NCBI GenBank assembly: GCA_011388275.1 | Contig: DSAB01000061.1 | Location: 1-38,449, forward strand | Direction: 5' to 3' | DNA length: 38,449 nucleotides | DNA from: a bacterium | Lineage (GTDB): Bacteria; Zhuqueibacterota; QNDG01; DSAB01 | In this document: piece by piece, positions 1 to 7,497 of the stretch | Position numbering within the stretch: position 1 is the first letter of the stretch | How the letters are laid out: each line of letters begins with the position of its first letter | Notes under the pieces: model-generated | Seen by the model: only the letters and a program-made list of their open reading frames with translations | Database searches by the model: none | What the model was told of the DNA's origin: nothing | Translations under genes and position numbers: made by a program

Positions 1-914
1 AGGGTATCGTCTACCCGAAAAATCCGGATCCGGCTTTTAAACCCCTCGAGTTCATCGCCGAAATGTTCGACACCGTGGAAATCAACTCCACCTTCTACCA
101 TCCCGCGAATCCCTTTATGAGCCGGGCCTGGGTGCGCAAGGTCTCACACAATCCCCGATTCCTGTTTACCGCCAAACTCTGGCAGCGTTTTACCCACGAC
201 CGAAGACCCTTCGGAAGCGATGAGATAAGGGCGGTCCGCGAAGGAATCGACCCCCTGGCGCAATCGAACCGACTGGGCGCGGTGCTCTGTCAATTCCCCT
301 GGAGCTATAAAAACGACGAGAACAGCCGGGGCTGGCTGGCCGGACTGATCGACGCGTTTCGTGAATATCCTCTGGTCATGGAGTTTCGTCACAGTTCATG
401 GGATTCGGACTCGATACACGATTTTCTGGAGCAGAAAGGAGTCAGTCTGGCTTCCATCGATCAGCCCGTCATCGGCCGTTCCATCGAACCCAAAGCCGTT
501 CGTGTGGGATCCATCGGATATGTGCGGCTTCACGGAAGAAACTACAAGGCCTGGTTCCCGTCCAATAAAAAAACAGAAAAACCCTCCAAGATGTCCCGTT
601 ACGATTATCTCTACTCGGACACGGAGATACGCGAATGGGCGGATAAAATCCGCTTCATACACCAGGGAGCCAAACAGACTTTCGTCATTCAGAACAACCA
701 TCCCTGGGGCCAGGCCGTGGCCAACTCCCTGCAGCTGATGGAGGCCCTGGGAGAAACGGACATTCAGGCGCCTCAAAGCCTCATCGACCGGTATCCCCGG
801 CTCAGGACGATTGCCCGGCCTTCACCACCGCCTGCATGCTCTCCACGTGCAGACTCACGGCGCCCAGATCGTTCTCCACTTTACCCCGAAGAATCACCGG
901 ACGGACAGGGCTGA
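1..914 (+). CDS. DUF72 (YecE-like) family protein, 5' truncated by window edge
   Basis: The reading frame is open from base 3, before the first ATG at 63, so the gene starts outside the window. The visible start, GIVYPKNP followed by LEFIAEMFDTVEINSTFY, is the conserved N-terminal region of DUF72 proteins, which have a TIM-barrel-like fold; the usual opening GTSGW...W is missing. Later family blocks are visible: LVMEFRHSSW, GYVRLHGRN and FVIQNNHPWGQAVANSLQL. The biochemical role of the family is not settled. After RYPRL the protein carries about 37 Pro/Arg/Ser-rich residues that overlap the 3' end of dnaE2 on the other strand. This tail is unlike the family and probably comes from read-through into the opposing gene. 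Family assignment is firm; function is unknown. Confidence 0.88.
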   Translation, partial: GIVYPKNPDPAFKPLEFIAEMFDTVEINSTFYHPANPFMSRAWVRKVSHNPRFLFTAKLWQRFTHDRRPFGSDEIRAVREGIDPLAQSNRLGAVLCQFPWSYKNDENSRGWLAGLIDAFREYPLVMEFRHSSWDSDSIHDFLEQKGVSLASIDQPVIGRSIEPKAVRVGSIGYVRLHGRNYKAWFPSNKKTEKPSKMSRYDYLYSDTEIREWADKIRFIHQGAKQTFVIQNNHPWGQAVANSLQLMEALGETDIQAPQSLIDRYPRLRTIARPSPPPACSPRADSRRPDRSPLYPEESPDGQG

Positions 915-3798
915 AACGGGAAGCATACCGGCGAAAGGCCGGGGGAAAAAAGATGGTCTCGAAAAGGGCGGTGCGATCTTCGAAACTGATGAAAGCCATG
1001 GGCTCCTCCTGCCGAGTATACACCATCTTGTTGGTCACCCACCACCCCACGAGAGTCACCCGCTTGCCCACATGCCGGTGCATGTCCGCCGCATGAATAC
1101 GGGGAACCCGGCGGAGAGTTTCCTCATAGAGATCCAGAGGATGTGCGCACAAGGGGAATCCCAGCACCTCCACCTCGAAACGCAGCATCGCGTGAAAATC
1201 ATACGATCCCAGGTCGGGGATCCGAAGGGTTTCCTGGCTGAAAAGATCCAGGGTGGTCTGGGGCCGGGGACGGTTTCTCCGGACCGCCTCCGTCTCCCAC
1301 AAAAGCTGGGGCCGCGTCCGCTCCTGAGCCACGGAATCGAAACATCCCGCCTTGATGAGTATCCGAAGATCGGCGGGCTCCAGTCCCGTTCGCCGGATAA
1401 AAGACTCGAAAGAATCATAGGGTCCCCCCTGCTCCCTCTTCGAAAGAATGACATCCAGAGCCTCCCCGCGGAGACCCTTCAGCTGCATGAGTCCCACCCG
1501 CAGTTCGCCGCTCCTGCCCCGATAATGGCGATCCGAGGCGTTGATATCAGGGGGAAGCACCTTCAACCCCATCCGCCGGGCTTCCGAGAGATAGGCGAAA
1601 GTCGTGTAGTATCCGCCCTGATTGCTGATCACGGCGGCCATGAACTCCGCCGGATAATGGGCCCGCAAATAGGCCGATTTAAACGAAACCATGGCATAGG
1701 ACGCACTGTGAGGTTTGCAGAAACTGTATCCGCCGAAGGAAAGAATCATCTCCCAGACCTGATCGATGACCCGGGAACCGATTCCCCGGGCGCGGGCTCC
1801 GGCCCGGAATCGCCGGGAGTACTCCGTAAGACGCCGGTGGTTCCGTTTTTTGGAAAGAGTTTTGCGCAACCCGTCCCCCTCCCCGGGTGTAAAGCCCGCC
1901 ATCTCCACGGCGATCTTGGTCACATCTTCCTGATAGACCATGATTCCGTACGTCTCGCCGAGAACGCGCTGCAGGATGGGGTGAATGGGTTCGTAGGGCT
2001 CGCCCTTCAGCCTCCGGACATATTCGTTGATATAGGTGTTGGCCGCCGGACGGATGATGGAGCTGTGAATCACCAGATGTTCGAAATCGCCCCTTCCCGT
2101 TTTTTTCTGGAGCTGCCGCATGGCCGGTGATTCGATGTAGAAAACGCCCAGCGTGTCACCCCGGGCGATGAGATCCTTTGTGTCTTCGTCATCCAGGGGA
2201 TTGAAATCTGCGTAATCGATGATTCGCCCCGTATGCCGGCGAATCGCGGCCAGGGCGTCGCGAATAACGGCCAGAGACCGGTTTCCCAGAAGATCGATCT
2301 TGACGAGTCCCGAATCTTCGGTCTGGTCTTTCTCCCACTGAATAATGCGCACTCCCTTGGGCGCCTTTTCAACGGGCACATGGTTCGACAGGACGCGGGG
2401 TGTGATGACCACACCGCCGCAGTGGACGGACAGGTGCCGGAACTGATTCCGCAGCCGGGAAGAGAGCGCCAGAATCTCGGGCCAGGGATCCCCCAGTTTC
2501 ATCCCGCGGAATACCGGATGCGTTTTCATCATGGTCTCCACATCCTCACCGGTCCAGTACCAGAGCCGGGCCAGCCGGTCCGTAACGGCTTTAATCTCCG
2601 CCTCGGGGAGCCCGTAGACCCTGGCCACTTCACGCACCGCAGCCCTGGGCCGGAATCCCACATGATTGGATACCATGGCCGTTCGTTCCTCCCCGTATTT
2701 TTTAAACACATAATCCAGTATCTCGTCACGCTCATCCCAGGGAAAGTCCACATCGATATCCGGAGGATCCTTTCTCCCCGGATTGAGAAAACGTTCAAAA
2801 TACAGATTATACTTCAGGGGGTCCACATGGGTGATGCCAAGACAGTAGGAGACCAGACTGGCGGCCGCGGAACCGCGGCCGCACGTGCGGGGCGCCTGGT
2901 TCACAATATCCTCCATCACGAGAAAAACAGCCCCGAAACCCTTTTCCCCGATGATCTCCAGTTCATACTCAATGCGGCGGCGCACCGGAAGCGTCAGGCT
3001 CCCATACCGCCTGATAGCTCCCTCCCGGACCCGTTCTCTCAGGCGGTCCATGAGTCCCCCGTTATCCAGATCTTCAAAGCCGGGTGAAATCACCGAACCA
3101 AACCCGCCGGAGAAGTCGCAGGACCCGGCGATTCGAGCGGTGTTCTCCACGGCTTCGGGAATATGGGGGAAATGAGAGCGTATCCGGTCCGGCGGCATCA
3201 GCCAGGCGGAAGGAGATTCACAGGCCGACGGCGGCAGCCGGGACAGTTTGGTGTTGAGATCCACGGCTCTCATCAGCCGGTGAAAATCATAATCTCCGGG
3301 AAGGAGAAAACTGGCGCCTGTGGTCGCCGCGGCGGGAATGTCAGCCGAACGGGCCGCCTCGAGAACCGACCGGAAAGGATATCCGGCCCTCAGCTCGGCG
3401 TATCCGTCCACGCTTCTCCCCAGACCCTGCAGCATCCTGATGGAATCGGTGAGAACGGCCAGACCGCCGCCGAATTGCCTCAAAGCCTGAAAAAGCGAGA
3501 AATCCCGGTTCAGATGTCTTTCCGTCAAAATCCGGCACAGATTGGCATATCCGTCGGCGGTTTTTGCCAGACACACGGCCCGCTCCGAGGCGGTTTCCAC
3601 CTCCGCCCCCAGAATGGGGCGGATGCCCGTCTCCCGGGCGGCCTGCAGGAAGAAGATGAGGCCGTACAGGCCGTTACGATCCGTCAGAGCCACCTGCTTC
3701 ATACCGGCCCGCCGTGCGGCGCGGCAAAGCGTCTCGGGATCCGGAATCCCCCGCATAAAAGAATAATGGGAATGCACATGAAGATGCACGAAAGACAT
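802..3798 (-). CDS. dnaE2: Error-prone DNA polymerase III alpha subunit DnaE2/ImuC
   Basis: This is a C-family DNA polymerase of 998 aa, shorter than replicative DnaE (about 1160 aa) and in the range of DnaE2/ImuC. An N-terminal PHP domain opens with HLHVHSHYSF. The palm carries CGRGSAAASLVSYCLG (about 306-321) and PDIDVDF with the presumed catalytic Asp349 and Asp351; the third, Asp502, lies in VKIDLLGNRSL. A C-terminal OB domain follows (VTLVGWWVTNKMVYTRQ). The polymerase therefore looks active. In known SOS mutasomes DnaE2 performs translesion synthesis with ImuB, which links it to the beta clamp. The ATG lies 3 bases after the imuB stop and follows GGGGTGA, so the two are probably co-transcribed. 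Its 3' end overlaps the opposing DUF72 gene by 113 bp. No imuA is found beside it. Confidence 0.95.
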   Translation of the reverse strand: MSFVHLHVHSHYSFMRGIPDPETLCRAARRAGMKQVALTDRNGLYGLIFFLQAARETGIRPILGAEVETASERAVCLAKTADGYANLCRILTERHLNRDFSLFQALRQFGGGLAVLTDSIRMLQGLGRSVDGYAELRAGYPFRSVLEAARSADIPAAATTGASFLLPGDYDFHRLMRAVDLNTKLSRLPPSACESPSAWLMPPDRIRSHFPHIPEAVENTARIAGSCDFSGGFGSVISPGFEDLDNGGLMDRLRERVREGAIRRYGSLTLPVRRRIEYELEIIGEKGFGAVFLVMEDIVNQAPRTCGRGSAAASLVSYCLGITHVDPLKYNLYFERFLNPGRKDPPDIDVDFPWDERDEILDYVFKKYGEERTAMVSNHVGFRPRAAVREVARVYGLPEAEIKAVTDRLARLWYWTGEDVETMMKTHPVFRGMKLGDPWPEILALSSRLRNQFRHLSVHCGGVVITPRVLSNHVPVEKAPKGVRIIQWEKDQTEDSGLVKIDLLGNRSLAVIRDALAAIRRHTGRIIDYADFNPLDDEDTKDLIARGDTLGVFYIESPAMRQLQKKTGRGDFEHLVIHSSIIRPAANTYINEYVRRLKGEPYEPIHPILQRVLGETYGIMVYQEDVTKIAVEMAGFTPGEGDGLRKTLSKKRNHRRLTEYSRRFRAGARARGIGSRVIDQVWEMILSFGGYSFCKPHSASYAMVSFKSAYLRAHYPAEFMAAVISNQGGYYTTFAYLSEARRMGLKVLPPDINASDRHYRGRSGELRVGLMQLKGLRGEALDVILSKREQGGPYDSFESFIRRTGLEPADLRILIKAGCFDSVAQERTRPQLLWETEAVRRNRPRPQTTLDLFSQETLRIPDLGSYDFHAMLRFEVEVLGFPLCAHPLDLYEETLRRVPRIHAADMHRHVGKRVTLVGWWVTNKMVYTRQEEPMAFISFEDRTALFETIFFPPAFRRYASRFSPVRPVILRGKVENDLGAVSLHVESMQAVVKAGQSS

Positions 3799-3801
3799 GA
3801 C

Positions 3802-5001
3802 TCACCCCGCCGCAGGGGGGAAAACCGGAAGGTACGGCAGCCCCCCGGCCCGTTCCCGCCCCCATTGCAGGGCGCCCTCACCGAAACGGCCGCGCAAATC
3901 ATCCAGGGCCCGGATCAGGGCCTCCTCCCGGGAATGCGGGGAAAAATCGAAAAGAGCCGTCTGGGCCGGGAGCGCGGACAGATCCGTAAAGGTCAGGCTC
4001 ATGTGCCTGAGACGCTGTCGGCGGCCGGAAACCTTGAGAAAGAGAGACTCAAGTATGGGAAAGAGAACACGCTCCGGCAGACCGGCCGCGGGAAGCCGCT
4101 CCTTCCGGATCATATCCAACCCGTCCGCGTACCGGATATGGAGCCAGACGGTCCGGGAAACAACACCCTGAACCCGCAGGCGGCGGCAGGCTCGTTCCAT
4201 GAGCAGGAAAAGCGTTCCCAGGAGTCGTTCGTCGTCATTGGTATCCATGCCGGCCTCCTCCAGAATAAAGGGCCTGGCCGCCGGAATCCGTACCGGCTGA
4301 TCATCCATGCCCAGCGCCTGACGGCGCAGAAGCGCGGCCCGCCGGCCGAAAACAGCGGCCAGCTGACCCGGTGTCAGAACCGCCAGCTGATGAACGCGCC
4401 GTATGTTGAGCTCCGTCAGCTTCTCCCGCTCGGCGCGATTCCGCAAAGCCGGCAGCATCCGGACATTCAGAGGAGCCAGAAACGCGGCTTCACTGCCCGG
4501 CGGCACGGTTACCAGATCGCCGTGGGTCTCGATCACCCGGGCCGCCACTCCGGAAACCAGTTTGTTCGATCCGATACCCAGCGTACCGGCCAGGCAAAGC
4601 CGTACCGCCACCTCGCGGCGCATGCGAAATGCCGTGTCCTGTACAGGACCGAAAAGGCGCCGGGTGCCCGTCATGTCCACAAAGAAACGTCCCCAGCGGC
4701 CGGGTTCCACAAGCGGAGAGAAATCCTGAAGCACCCGGGTCACCGCTTCTCCGGCTTTTCGATACCGTCCCTCATCCGGGGGCAGAATTACCAGGCGGCG
4801 GCATCGCTTCAATGCCCGGGTCAGGGGCATGCCCTCGAATACCCCCTCCTGCCGGGCCTCGGGCGAAGCCGAAAAAATCAGCGACCGGGGAGAGTGCCTG
4901 GGACACACCGCCACCGGTCTGCCTGCGAGCGACGCGTCCCGCAGCCGCTCGACCGCCACGGGAAACCCGTCGATGCGAAGATGCAGAATATTTCTTTTCA
5001 C
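3802..5001 (-). CDS. imuB: ImuB-like Y-family polymerase homologue, catalytically dead
   Basis: This 399-aa Y-family protein has the palm, thumb and little-finger layout of DinB but lacks the catalytic acids. HVDMD of DinB aligns with HLRID (Arg9 replaces the first Asp), and LSLDEAYLDVT aligns with RWGRFFVDMT, so Asp and Glu become Gly104 and Arg105. The steric-gate region is GFPVAVE. This is the hallmark of ImuB, a scaffold that brings DnaE2 to lesions. QTALF at 347-351 resembles a beta-clamp-binding motif. The start is GTG (antisense 5001-4999) with no Shine-Dalgarno sequence, lying in a small hairpin. It sits 48 bases after lexA and 3 bases before dnaE2. Calling it ImuB rests on the lost residues and the neighbours. 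Confidence 0.92.
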   Translation of the reverse strand: MKRNILHLRIDGFPVAVERLRDASLAGRPVAVCPRHSPRSLIFSASPEARQEGVFEGMPLTRALKRCRRLVILPPDEGRYRKAGEAVTRVLQDFSPLVEPGRWGRFFVDMTGTRRLFGPVQDTAFRMRREVAVRLCLAGTLGIGSNKLVSGVAARVIETHGDLVTVPPGSEAAFLAPLNVRMLPALRNRAEREKLTELNIRRVHQLAVLTPGQLAAVFGRRAALLRRQALGMDDQPVRIPAARPFILEEAGMDTNDDERLLGTLFLLMERACRRLRVQGVVSRTVWLHIRYADGLDMIRKERLPAAGLPERVLFPILESLFLKVSGRRQRLRHMSLTFTDLSALPAQTALFDFSPHSREEALIRALDDLRGRFGEGALQWGRERAGGLPYLPVFPPAAG

Positions 5002-5049: not shown

Positions 5050-5655
5050 TCAGCGGCGTTCGTAACGGCGCAGCAGTCCCACCACCACTCCCTGGATACT
5101 GAATTCACCCCGGCGCACGAAAATGGACGCCATGGCGGCATTGGCCGGCCGCAGTTCCACCTCATCCCCTTTTCGGTAATATTTCTTTACCGTGGCCTCG
5201 CCCTCGACCAATGCCACCACGGTCTGTCCGTTCTGCGCCGTGGCCTGTTTTTTCACCACAATGGTGTCTCCCCCGAGAATGCCCTCATCCACCATGGAGT
5301 CTCCCCGCACCTTCAGGGCGAAGTACTCTCCGGACCCCAGCATCTCTTCCGGCACGTCGATGAACTCTTGCTGCTCGATGGCTTCGATGGGACTGCCCGC
5401 GGCCACCAGTCCGGCCATGGGCAGTGTCACCGTGCTGCCTCCGTGCTCCACCAGAGTGATCATGCGGGAACGGCAGCGCTCCGGAATGCGAATGTATCCC
5501 TTGCGTTCCAGCTGGGCCAGATATTTCTGCACCGACTGCAGGGAGCGGAGCCCGAAATGGCGCCGGATCTCGTCGTACGTGGGGGATATGCCTCGCTCGC
5601 GGATATAGGCCCGCAGATATTGATAGACCGCCTGCTGTTTTTCGGTCAGGTTCAT
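5050..5655 (-). CDS. lexA: SOS repressor LexA
   Basis: This 201-aa LexA represses SOS genes and cleaves itself when stimulated by RecA filaments. An N-terminal winged helix (1-65) includes SPTYDEIRRHFGLRS and a recognition helix beginning SLQSVQKYLAQLERKGYI. The cleavage site is Ala86-Gly87 in LVAAGSP, with the catalytic dyad Ser120 (RGDSM) and Lys157 (ATVKK). A longer frame runs upstream to 5733, but homology starts at MNLTEKQQ, so ATG 5655 is chosen. No Shine-Dalgarno sequence precedes this ATG, and the promoter places the transcript start about at the ATG, suggesting a leaderless mRNA. It heads the lexA-imuB-dnaE2 operon and probably regulates itself and the mutasome. The recognition helix differs from those of E. 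coli and Bacillus, so a different operator is expected. Confidence 0.96.
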   Translation of the reverse strand: MNLTEKQQAVYQYLRAYIRERGISPTYDEIRRHFGLRSLQSVQKYLAQLERKGYIRIPERCRSRMITLVEHGGSTVTLPMAGLVAAGSPIEAIEQQEFIDVPEEMLGSGEYFALKVRGDSMVDEGILGGDTIVVKKQATAQNGQTVVALVEGEATVKKYYRKGDEVELRPANAAMASIFVRRGEFSIQGVVVGLLRRYERR

Positions 5656-5661
5656 GAAAAC

Positions 5662-5690
5662 AATATAGGTATACAAAAGGTATAAATCAA
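5662..5690 (-). promoter_or_regulatory. lexA operon promoter with spacer dyad (candidate LexA operator)
   Basis: Read leftward, TTGATT (5690-5685), a 17-base spacer and TATATT (5667-5662) form a strong sigma-70-type promoter. The spacer holds the dyad TATAC-N5-GTATA (5670-5684), well placed to block RNA polymerase. It can also be read as two TATACC repeats 11 bp apart. The dyad matches neither the gammaproteobacterial CTGT-N8-ACAG nor the Gram-positive GAAC-N4-GTTC operator. The expected transcript start, 7 bases after -10, is the A of the lexA ATG. Confidence 0.6.
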
Positions 5691-5880: not shown

Positions 5881-6390
5881 TCAGGGGAACGGATATCTCG
5901 GCTCCCTGTTTTCGGGTTTCTTGTCTTTGGAAGGTTCCCGGCGGGAATGCCGGGATTCTCCGCCCATACGGCTGAGCAGGAATCGGTAGAACCGGTCCTG
6001 CTGATCCGAAGGCAAAATTCTCTTTTCTTTCATCAGCTGATTGGCGACCTTCTTGTCGATGACGCGCTGCAGTTCGGCAACCGTCTCTATTTTCTGATGG
6101 ACCCTCAATGAATCGACACTTTCATTCATGAACATTTCAAGCAGCTGTTTTTTTTCTTCACGAATCCTGCGTACCGACGGATCGATTTCTTTGAAAAAAG
6201 CCTGGCGTAACTCGGACAGTTTCTCCCTCTTTTCCGGCGGTATGTCCATGGACACGACAGGCTGCTTCTTGACATCCGGTTTTTCGGTTCGATACCTGCG
6301 TTGAAAAACCTGAAACCCGATGGCAGTGATAAAAGCCGCATTAAAAACCAGGGAGACAATGCAGATCCATGTCATGTGCCGTTTTTTCAT
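5881..6390 (-). CDS. Membrane-anchored Spy/CpxP-like periplasmic protein
   Basis: The 169-aa protein has one N-terminal membrane segment (about 8-27, ICIVSLVFNAAFITAIGF) and a charged, mostly helical periplasmic part. IPPEKREKLSELRQAFF and a later LPSDQQDRFYRFL fit the Spy/CpxP/heavy-metal-resistance family, whose members have LTxxQ-like motifs and act as periplasmic chaperones or metal sensors (CnrX, ZraP). The tail is basic and proline-rich. Its start overlaps the anti-sigma stop by 4 bases (ATGA), so the two are probably translationally coupled. By analogy with cnrYXH it may sense the envelope signal that frees the sigma factor. The family call is moderate because sequence conservation is weak; the metal or stress role is inference. 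Confidence 0.7.
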   Translation of the reverse strand: MKKRHMTWICIVSLVFNAAFITAIGFQVFQRRYRTEKPDVKKQPVVSMDIPPEKREKLSELRQAFFKEIDPSVRRIREEKKQLLEMFMNESVDSLRVHQKIETVAELQRVIDKKVANQLMKEKRILPSDQQDRFYRFLLSRMGGESRHSRREPSKDKKPENREPRYPFP

Positions 6391-6833
6391 TTTCCATTTC
6401 CTCTTGAGACCAGCTGCTGTGAGGCCAGTTCCATGTAGAGATCGCCCAGCATGGATCCAGCCGCTGTTTCCAGCTCACGAGTGTAGGAATCGTTTTCAGC
6501 CAGCGTGGAGACCGGAACCGAATGCCGGGTCATGAGACTCCCCAGAAACAAACCCAGCGCAAGAGCGATCAACGCCGTAACAGGCAGCAGAACGCGCTCT
6601 CTCCACCGCGGCTGTTCTCTTCGTGTCATCAAGGCGCTGCGCACCCGTGTATACAGGTAGGGATTATCCTGAGCCTCGCCGAGAGCGTCCAGTATATTCC
6701 AGGACAATCTCATTCGTTTCAGGCGCATTCGGCAATCCGCACACCGGGATACATGAAAATCCACGGCCCGCCGTGTTTCACCGCTGAGCTCGCCGTCCAT
6801 ATACGCGGATAATTTCTTTATCGGACATTTCAT
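6387..6833 (-). CDS. Anti-sigma factor with zinc-finger (ZAS) domain and one membrane segment
   Basis: This 148-aa protein has an N-terminal zinc anti-sigma domain with Cys3 and the signature HVSRCADC (His27-x3-Cys31-x2-Cys34), followed by a cytoplasmic linker. A membrane helix at about 81-101 (VLLPVTALIALALGLFLGSL) and a short periplasmic tail follow. The domain normally binds and holds an ECF sigma factor at the membrane. It lies 51 bases after the ECF sigma gene and overlaps the Spy-like gene, so the three form one operon. Release may be by proteolysis or by a change signalled through the Spy-like partner; the sequence does not show which. Confidence 0.88.
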   Translation of the reverse strand: MKCPIKKLSAYMDGELSGETRRAVDFHVSRCADCRMRLKRMRLSWNILDALGEAQDNPYLYTRVRSALMTRREQPRWRERVLLPVTALIALALGLFLGSLMTRHSVPVSTLAENDSYTRELETAAGSMLGDLYMELASQQLVSRGNGK

Positions 6834-6884
6834 GGTTTTTCCTCTATGGATGGAACACGACTCTGACTGAAAAACTTTCCCTGA

Positions 6885-7451
6885 TTATTCATTTTTCGCG
6901 TAGGCCTTTAATTTTTTCTGCAAAGCCAGCTTGGCCCTGTGCAGCCTGGACTCCACGGCTGAAACGGAACACTCCATCACTTCCGCGATCTCTTCATAGC
7001 TGAGCCCGTTAAACCGCTTGAGTATGACCGCCGTCCTCTGTCCGGCGGGCAAGGTGTCCAGGGCCGCCCGGACCACGGCTTCCAGTTCCTTGTTTTCCAG
7101 GATCGTGTCGGGTCTCTGCGTTTCATCGGCCGGATTACCGGCTGTGTTTCTTTCCGAAAGACCGTGAAGTGAAAGATACCGCCCGACCTTGCGGTCTCTG
7201 ATCTTGTTCAGGGAAAGATTCACGGCGATTCGATACATATAGGTCGTCAATTTGCCCTGCGGTGTGTACCTGGACGCGGAACGGTACAAATTGACGAATA
7301 CATCCTGGGCGACCTCTTCGGCGTCGTCCTGATTGCCCACATAGCGGTAAGCTAGATTCAATATGGATTGACGATGCCGGTTTACCAGGAGCCTGAGGGC
7401 TTCCTCGTCCCCCTTTTTCAACCGTTTCATCAATTCCTGATCGTCAGGCAT
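6885..7451 (-). CDS. ECF-family RNA polymerase sigma factor (RpoE-like)
   Basis: This is a 188-aa group IV sigma factor. Region 2 (about 10-80) includes YRYVGNQDDAEEVAQDVFVNLYR and TYMYRIAVNLSLNKIRDRK. Region 4 (about 125-180) includes LPAGQRTAVILKRFNGLSYE and a helix-turn-helix ending VESRLHRAKLALQKKL. It should direct RNA polymerase to promoters of an envelope-stress regulon, very likely including its own operon. The ATG at 7451 is chosen; a GTG immediately before it (7454) is possible. A GAGGAG lies about 15 bases upstream, rather far for a ribosome binding site. The histidine-kinase gene ends 46 bases upstream on the same strand, so read-through is possible. Confidence 0.94.
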   Translation of the reverse strand: MPDDQELMKRLKKGDEEALRLLVNRHRQSILNLAYRYVGNQDDAEEVAQDVFVNLYRSASRYTPQGKLTTYMYRIAVNLSLNKIRDRKVGRYLSLHGLSERNTAGNPADETQRPDTILENKELEAVVRAALDTLPAGQRTAVILKRFNGLSYEEIAEVMECSVSAVESRLHRAKLALQKKLKAYAKNE

Positions 7452-7497
7452 CACGGCTTTGACTCACTCCTCAATCATATATTCCATCATGGATCCC

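Follow-up and report, generated by a model that had tools for sequence, protein, structure and literature searches.

The DNA upstream of lexA in the analyzed stretch (38,449 nucleotides, hereafter the window) is probably an autoregulated control region of a lexA-imuB-dnaE2 SOS cassette, in which a LexA dimer on a direct repeat in the promoter spacer would block RNA polymerase and lexA itself would be leaderless. The dimer would bind TTATACC-N4-NTATACC, whose 11-bp pitch is about one helical turn, and RNA polymerase would be blocked because the LexA-bound repeat fills the spacer between the -35 and -10 elements. After DNA damage, RecA filaments would trigger the self-cleavage of LexA and the operon would be expressed, with the lexA, imuB-like, and dnaE2-like genes presumably co-transcribed. 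Transcription is predicted to start at the lexA start codon or no more than about three bases away, and LexA would accordingly be made from a message without a leader.

lexA and the mutagenesis cassette

The lexA gene (5050..5655, minus strand) codes for a protein of 201 aa that matched TIGR00498 with 197.9 bits against a cut-off of 110.95. The protein consists of a winged helix-turn-helix LexA DNA-binding domain (Pfam LexA_DNA_bind, PF01726) and an S24 peptidase domain (Pfam Peptidase_S24, PF00717). LexAs of solved structure aligned with it from end to end, including the cleavage site and the active-site Ser and Lys, and the protein is predicted to carry a self-cleavage site with catalytic Ser and Lys. 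Its alignment to the LexA family begins at residue 2, which makes the ATG at 5655-5653 the likely start codon.

In the window, the lexA gene, an imuB-like gene (3802..5001), and a dnaE2-like polymerase gene (802..3798) stand in line and in one direction on the minus strand. The imuB-like gene codes for a relative of Y-family polymerases with the Pfam domains IMS and IMS_C. The acidic catalytic motifs that are kept in the genome's own DinB were lost in this protein, as in ImuB, when the two were compared by eye; the IMS domains and this comparison together show the ImuB pattern of a Y-family fold without the catalytic acidic residues. The dnaE2-like product matched Pfam PHP, DNA_pol3_alpha, and other domains, and the NCBIfam error-prone polymerase model matched it below the model's own cut-off. 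Judged by gene order and domain content, lexA is the first gene of a lexA-imuB-dnaE2 mutagenesis cassette. This arrangement is similar to the lexA-imuA-imuB-dnaE2 cassette, in which lexA likewise comes first and is followed in the same direction by a Y-family protein and DnaE2, but it differs in that no imuA lies between lexA and imuB in the window.

The class to which the window's genome belongs was represented by 12 genomes, and lexA was scored as present at E <= 1e-30 in eight of them, including the window's own genome (G000). Three of the other four had no match at E <= 0.001, and G007 had a weak C-terminal match; the absence of lexA from these four genomes is likely, not proven, because the genomes are 84-95% complete. 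The eight genomes with lexA were also those with the imuB-like gene, at identities of 46-63% (73% in G011, where the first 80 codons alone precede a contig end), and the four genomes without lexA had only DinB-level matches to imuB (29-32%, and 33% in G008). lexA and imuB were on one contig in 7/8 genomes and on separate contigs in G006. dnaE2 adjoined imuB in 6 of the 8 lexA-bearing genomes; the contig ends in G011, and dnaE2 was not found in the 1.04 kb available after imuB of G003.

In two genomes, the gap between lexA and imuB held another gene, whose product by eye resembled a REP-associated transposase (with hairpin repeats; L235 of G002, about 6380-7150) or a GxxExxY protein (L236 of G003, about 2192-2843). 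Upstream of lexA in the window (5881-7454, minus strand), genes for an ECF-type sigma factor, a zf-HC2 protein, and a Metal_resist-domain protein run in one direction, and the zf-HC2 protein could be the anti-sigma factor of the ECF-type sigma.

Promoter and predicted leaderless start of lexA

An earlier note on this DNA had read a promoter, TTGATT-N17-TATATT, directly before lexA. It was present at 5690-5662 on the minus strand, with the -35 element TTGATT at 5685..5690 and the -10 element TATATT at 5662..5667, 6 nt from the lexA ATG. Promoter-type matches numbered 2 in 2 kb versus 1.1 +/- 1.1 expected, so that the match taken alone was no better than chance, and the case for the promoter therefore rests on conservation. 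The -35 element was TTGAYT and the -10 element TAYMTT in 8/8 class genomes with this lexA, and TTGAYTTAYACC-N5-TATACCTAYMTT was common to all eight class lexA genes. Mean pairwise identity among these genes was 0.89 across the 29 bp of promoter and repeat; it fell to 0.26 and 0.32 in two 45-bp blocks upstream of the element and was 0.34 for the five bases after it.

The distance from the -10 element to the start codon was 5 nt in five genomes, 6 nt in two (including that of the window), and 9 nt in G006, where a 3-nt leader is likely because of the longer distance. Shine-Dalgarno pairing at the lexA start was absent in 8/8 class genomes (+0.8 to +2.8 kcal/mol; +0.8 kcal/mol in the window), as calculated against the anti-Shine-Dalgarno, and this bears out the earlier statement that no ribosome site precedes lexA. 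The recA starts in 11 of the 12 class genomes paired with the anti-Shine-Dalgarno at -5.1 to -11.4 kcal/mol. In the window, Shine-Dalgarno-like sites were found at two neighbor genes (-6.7 and -6.0 kcal/mol), and pairing was -11.0 kcal/mol for dnaE2 and weak, at -3.7 kcal/mol, for imuB. An mRNA without a leader is marked by a missing Shine-Dalgarno and a -10 element some 6 nt ahead of the start codon, as seen here with 5 or 6 nt in 7/8 genomes. From this spacing and the missing Shine-Dalgarno, the lexA start codon (5653..5655, minus strand) is also the predicted transcription start. We infer a leader of some 0-3 nt as the most plausible reading, and a leaderless or near-leaderless lexA transcript is well supported by the comparison of genomes. 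The claim that transcription begins at the ATG itself is in keeping with the distances from the conserved -10 element and stands as a prediction. The earlier note also proposed, as a hypothesis, that leaderless synthesis might tie the supply of the repressor to the condition of the ribosome pool.

G011 shares the promoter, with a GTG at the expected start position. Between this GTG and the resumed LexA reading lie 111 bases (L238, G011:C286:1-4000, near 1140-1260), which hold an in-frame stop and, directly after it, an ATG with which the LexA frame opens again. The stretch may have been inserted, may serve reinitiation, or may reflect a fault of the assembly.

Leaderless synthesis of a RecA-cleavable repressor has a precedent in the cI protein of phage lambda, which is made from PRM on a leaderless message. 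Unlike the window LexA, cI comes from a phage, its DNA-binding domain is of another type, and its operators are palindromes. The predicted start in the window can also be likened to lexA of Mycobacterium tuberculosis, which belongs to another phylum and whose translation start is the transcription start according to passages of one report (PMC2897130). The LexA motif of M. tuberculosis is given as the palindrome GAAC-N4-GTTC in passages of another (PMC3323433), whereas the putative operator of the window is a direct repeat.

Probable operator and predicted LexA targets

Between -35 and -10, the spacer is taken up by the conserved element, a direct repeat (TTATACC-N4-NTATACC) with an 11-bp period. 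Half-site 1, TTATACC (5679..5685, minus strand), was TTAYACC in 8/8 class genomes. Half-site 2 (5668..5674, minus strand), GTATACC in the window and NTATACC in the class, lies 11 bp from half-site 1 and kept TATACC in 8/8. Two same-direction TATACC half-sites 11 bp apart were thus found before lexA in all eight genomes, apart from a single T-to-C change in a G004 half-site, and a lag of 11 was detected in 7/7 class lexA loci tested. This is similar to the LexA box of Alphaproteobacteria, GTTC-N7-GTTC, which is also a direct repeat of 11-bp period before lexA according to passages of two papers (PMC9578287; PMC8565304). However, the half-site letters of the window class are TTATACC and not GTTC, and the element is therefore a variant, not the alphaproteobacterial box. 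Most likely, the putative operator belongs to the known direct-repeat kind of LexA operator and is new in its half-site letters; a literature search of titles, abstracts, and passages found no report of a TTATACC direct repeat.

An operator profile was built from 7 aligned sites. In the scan of G000, the lexA site was the sole match at E up to 10 among the 150 of 422 first-look candidates that were scored. In each of the 8 lexA genomes, no profile match outscored the one ahead of lexA (19.8-23.8 bits); away from lexA, matches in the 12 class genomes reached 16.4 bits at most. With <=3 mismatches, the consensus matched G000 13 times versus 61 times for the reversed control, and the lexA site alone matched with <3 mismatches; with <=2 mismatches, summed over the 11 relatives, it was rarer than the reversed control. 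The earlier note had proposed to look for its dyad before recA and other repair genes, and by this test the dyad failed. No operator-like site was present in the recA regions examined, which came from 11 of 12 class genomes (the recA of G010, cut by a contig start, was left out), their best profile scores being 2.2 to 11.4 versus 31.8 to 34.4 for the lexA sites, and recA was rejected as a LexA target. Fifty single-base shuffles of one recA region (L183) reached 13.7.

Several further matches were set aside. The 16.4-bit site lies in G002 (L203, G002:C69:8702-8722) and is a one-mismatch direct repeat in reversed direction, some 50 bases ahead of a gene whose product looks dCTP deaminase-like by eye; it was unsupported as a target. 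The same applies to a site of 16.2 bits in G005, a genome without a lexA match, where a transporter-like gene follows the site. Two matches were taken as chance: one of 16.7 in repetitive DNA next to the gene inserted between lexA and imuB in G003, and one of 16.3 on the other strand where lexA ends in G001. Because the profile finds the lexA site and the recA regions are without one, LexA seems to control mainly its own cassette. Control of this cassette alone by LexA is described for several organisms in passages of two papers (PMC3323433; PMC8072749), one of which presents the imu cassette as the only LexA-regulated unit in them (PMC3323433).

The earlier note had described the new operator as an inverted repeat, TATAC-N5-GTATA, and most reported LexA motifs are indeed palindromes according to passages of one source (PMC8565304). 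The letters of this dyad are present at 5670..5684, but they were not conserved: the letter before the second TATA, which is the G of the second arm, was G in G000 and C, T, T, A, T, T, and T in the other seven genomes, and the appearance of a dyad comes from TATA, which is self-complementary. Nor was the dyad enriched in the genome, where it occurred exactly at 2 places versus 3 for the reversed control and with one mismatch at 33 versus 79; the other exact copy sits inside a 278-aa ORF. It is thus highly improbable that LexA binds the dyad, which was rejected as the operator, and the claim of a new LexA operator agrees with the comparison in substance and was wrong in form, since the direct repeat and not the inverted one is conserved. 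A different doubt is whether the repeat is a LexA site at all or only part of the promoter, its odd spacer and the letters around -10 being conserved for the sake of RNA polymerase. TATACCTA does overlap the -10 element. However, spacer letters are normally not kept, the G000 profile found the element before lexA alone among its scored candidates, and the lexA genes of other phyla have different letters at the same pitch and register, which makes a purely promoter-related role improbable.

Given a direct-repeat operator, the main lexA transcript could nevertheless have a leader, either from a promoter further upstream or because the start codon lies elsewhere. The lexA frame of G000 would permit the latter, being open upstream (243 aa versus 201). 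However, the frame does not extend upstream in G001 and G010, where it is open for 200 aa, the blocks upstream of the promoter are not conserved, and no genome of the eight has a Shine-Dalgarno at the start codon. A transcript with such a leader appears unlikely, and a LexA-bound direct repeat upstream of a leaderless or near-leaderless lexA is the reading that we prefer.

Direct-repeat LexAs beyond the class

In the LexA tree (midpoint rooting), the class members belonged to one group of 49 rows with a support of 99/98. A promoter-register score was applied to the lexA upstream regions, combining a -35 element, an 11-bp direct repeat at fixed register, and a -10 element. Against dinucleotide shuffles, p <= 0.01 was reached by 21 of 41 group members, the 8 class members being left out, versus 2 of 52 others; the counts were 23/41 versus 4/52 at 0.03 and 26/41 versus 5/52 at 0.05. 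With single-base shuffles, they were 24/41 versus 6/52 at p <= 0.03, a cut-off chosen after the rows had been seen. In a lag scan of the upstream regions, lag 11 was found in 22/71 named loci (0.05 in shuffles; 0.18 for the next best lag), and in 1/22 lexA loci of other members of the window's phylum.

The half-site letters varied among these loci. Half-sites equal or close to TTTCACC occurred in L003-L008, which are loci of Desulfobacterales type and of Acidobacteriota; those equal or close to TTTCGGT, a kind of motif that may have been published before, belonged to loci of Patescibacteria, Omnitrophota, Latescibacterota, and Myxococcota; and the planctomycete locus L028 had ATTAGGG. Eight sphingomonads, whose LexAs fall in the same supported group as the window class LexA, had GTTC-type half-sites with an 11-bp period, three in a row and off register, whereas the window class has two half-sites between -35 and -10. 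The three GTT-type half-sites were seen upstream of lexA in L022, L023, L025, L026, L027, L029, L030, and L033. Both imuB- and dnaE2-like genes followed lexA in L003-L005, L007, and L010, and an imuB-like gene followed it in L006 and L008 within the DNA examined.

The recognition helices were read by eye. The helix was SxxSVQK in 8/8 LexAs with TTATACC, had Asn two places past the first Ser in 6/6 with TTCACC-type sites, and contained His in 9/9 TTCG-type loci (grouped by hand; L009 and L011 fail the dinucleotide test at 0.03). The match between helix and letters is not independent evidence of a code, because the letter groups each correspond to one side of a tree branch, that of the TTCACC group being weakly supported (79/73). 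The helix of the window LexA had been called unusual, but it resembles the helices of other LexAs with 11-bp direct repeats. L041, a Bdellovibrio relative with a similar helix, falls among the direct-repeat LexAs in the same part of the tree as the window LexA. The Bdellovibrio LexA motif is given as TTAC-N3-GTAA in passages of one source (PMC8565304), a palindrome unlike the direct repeat of the window. The LexAs of the other phylum members in the tree lay outside the 49-row group, so the class lexA does not follow that of its phylum, and one explanation is that it arrived with the cassette.

A broader reading, which we put forward tentatively and with slightly less than even confidence, is that a LexA clade spread across many phyla reads direct repeats of fixed 11-bp pitch, often locked between the -35 and -10 elements of lexA, while the half-site letters (TTATACC, TTTCACC, TTTCGGT, ATTAGGG, GTTC) drift with the recognition helix; the window class LexA would be leaderless and would control essentially its own mutagenesis cassette alone. 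LexA is known for the change of its DNA target through evolution. A clade with fixed pitch and register and changing half-site letters would be a natural series for the evolution of LexA specificity, and a way to learn how a LexA dimer reads two half-sites of the same direction. In addition, a leaderless repressor seemingly limited to an error-prone polymerase cassette would offer a clean system for studying how leaderless translation affects the timing of the SOS response.
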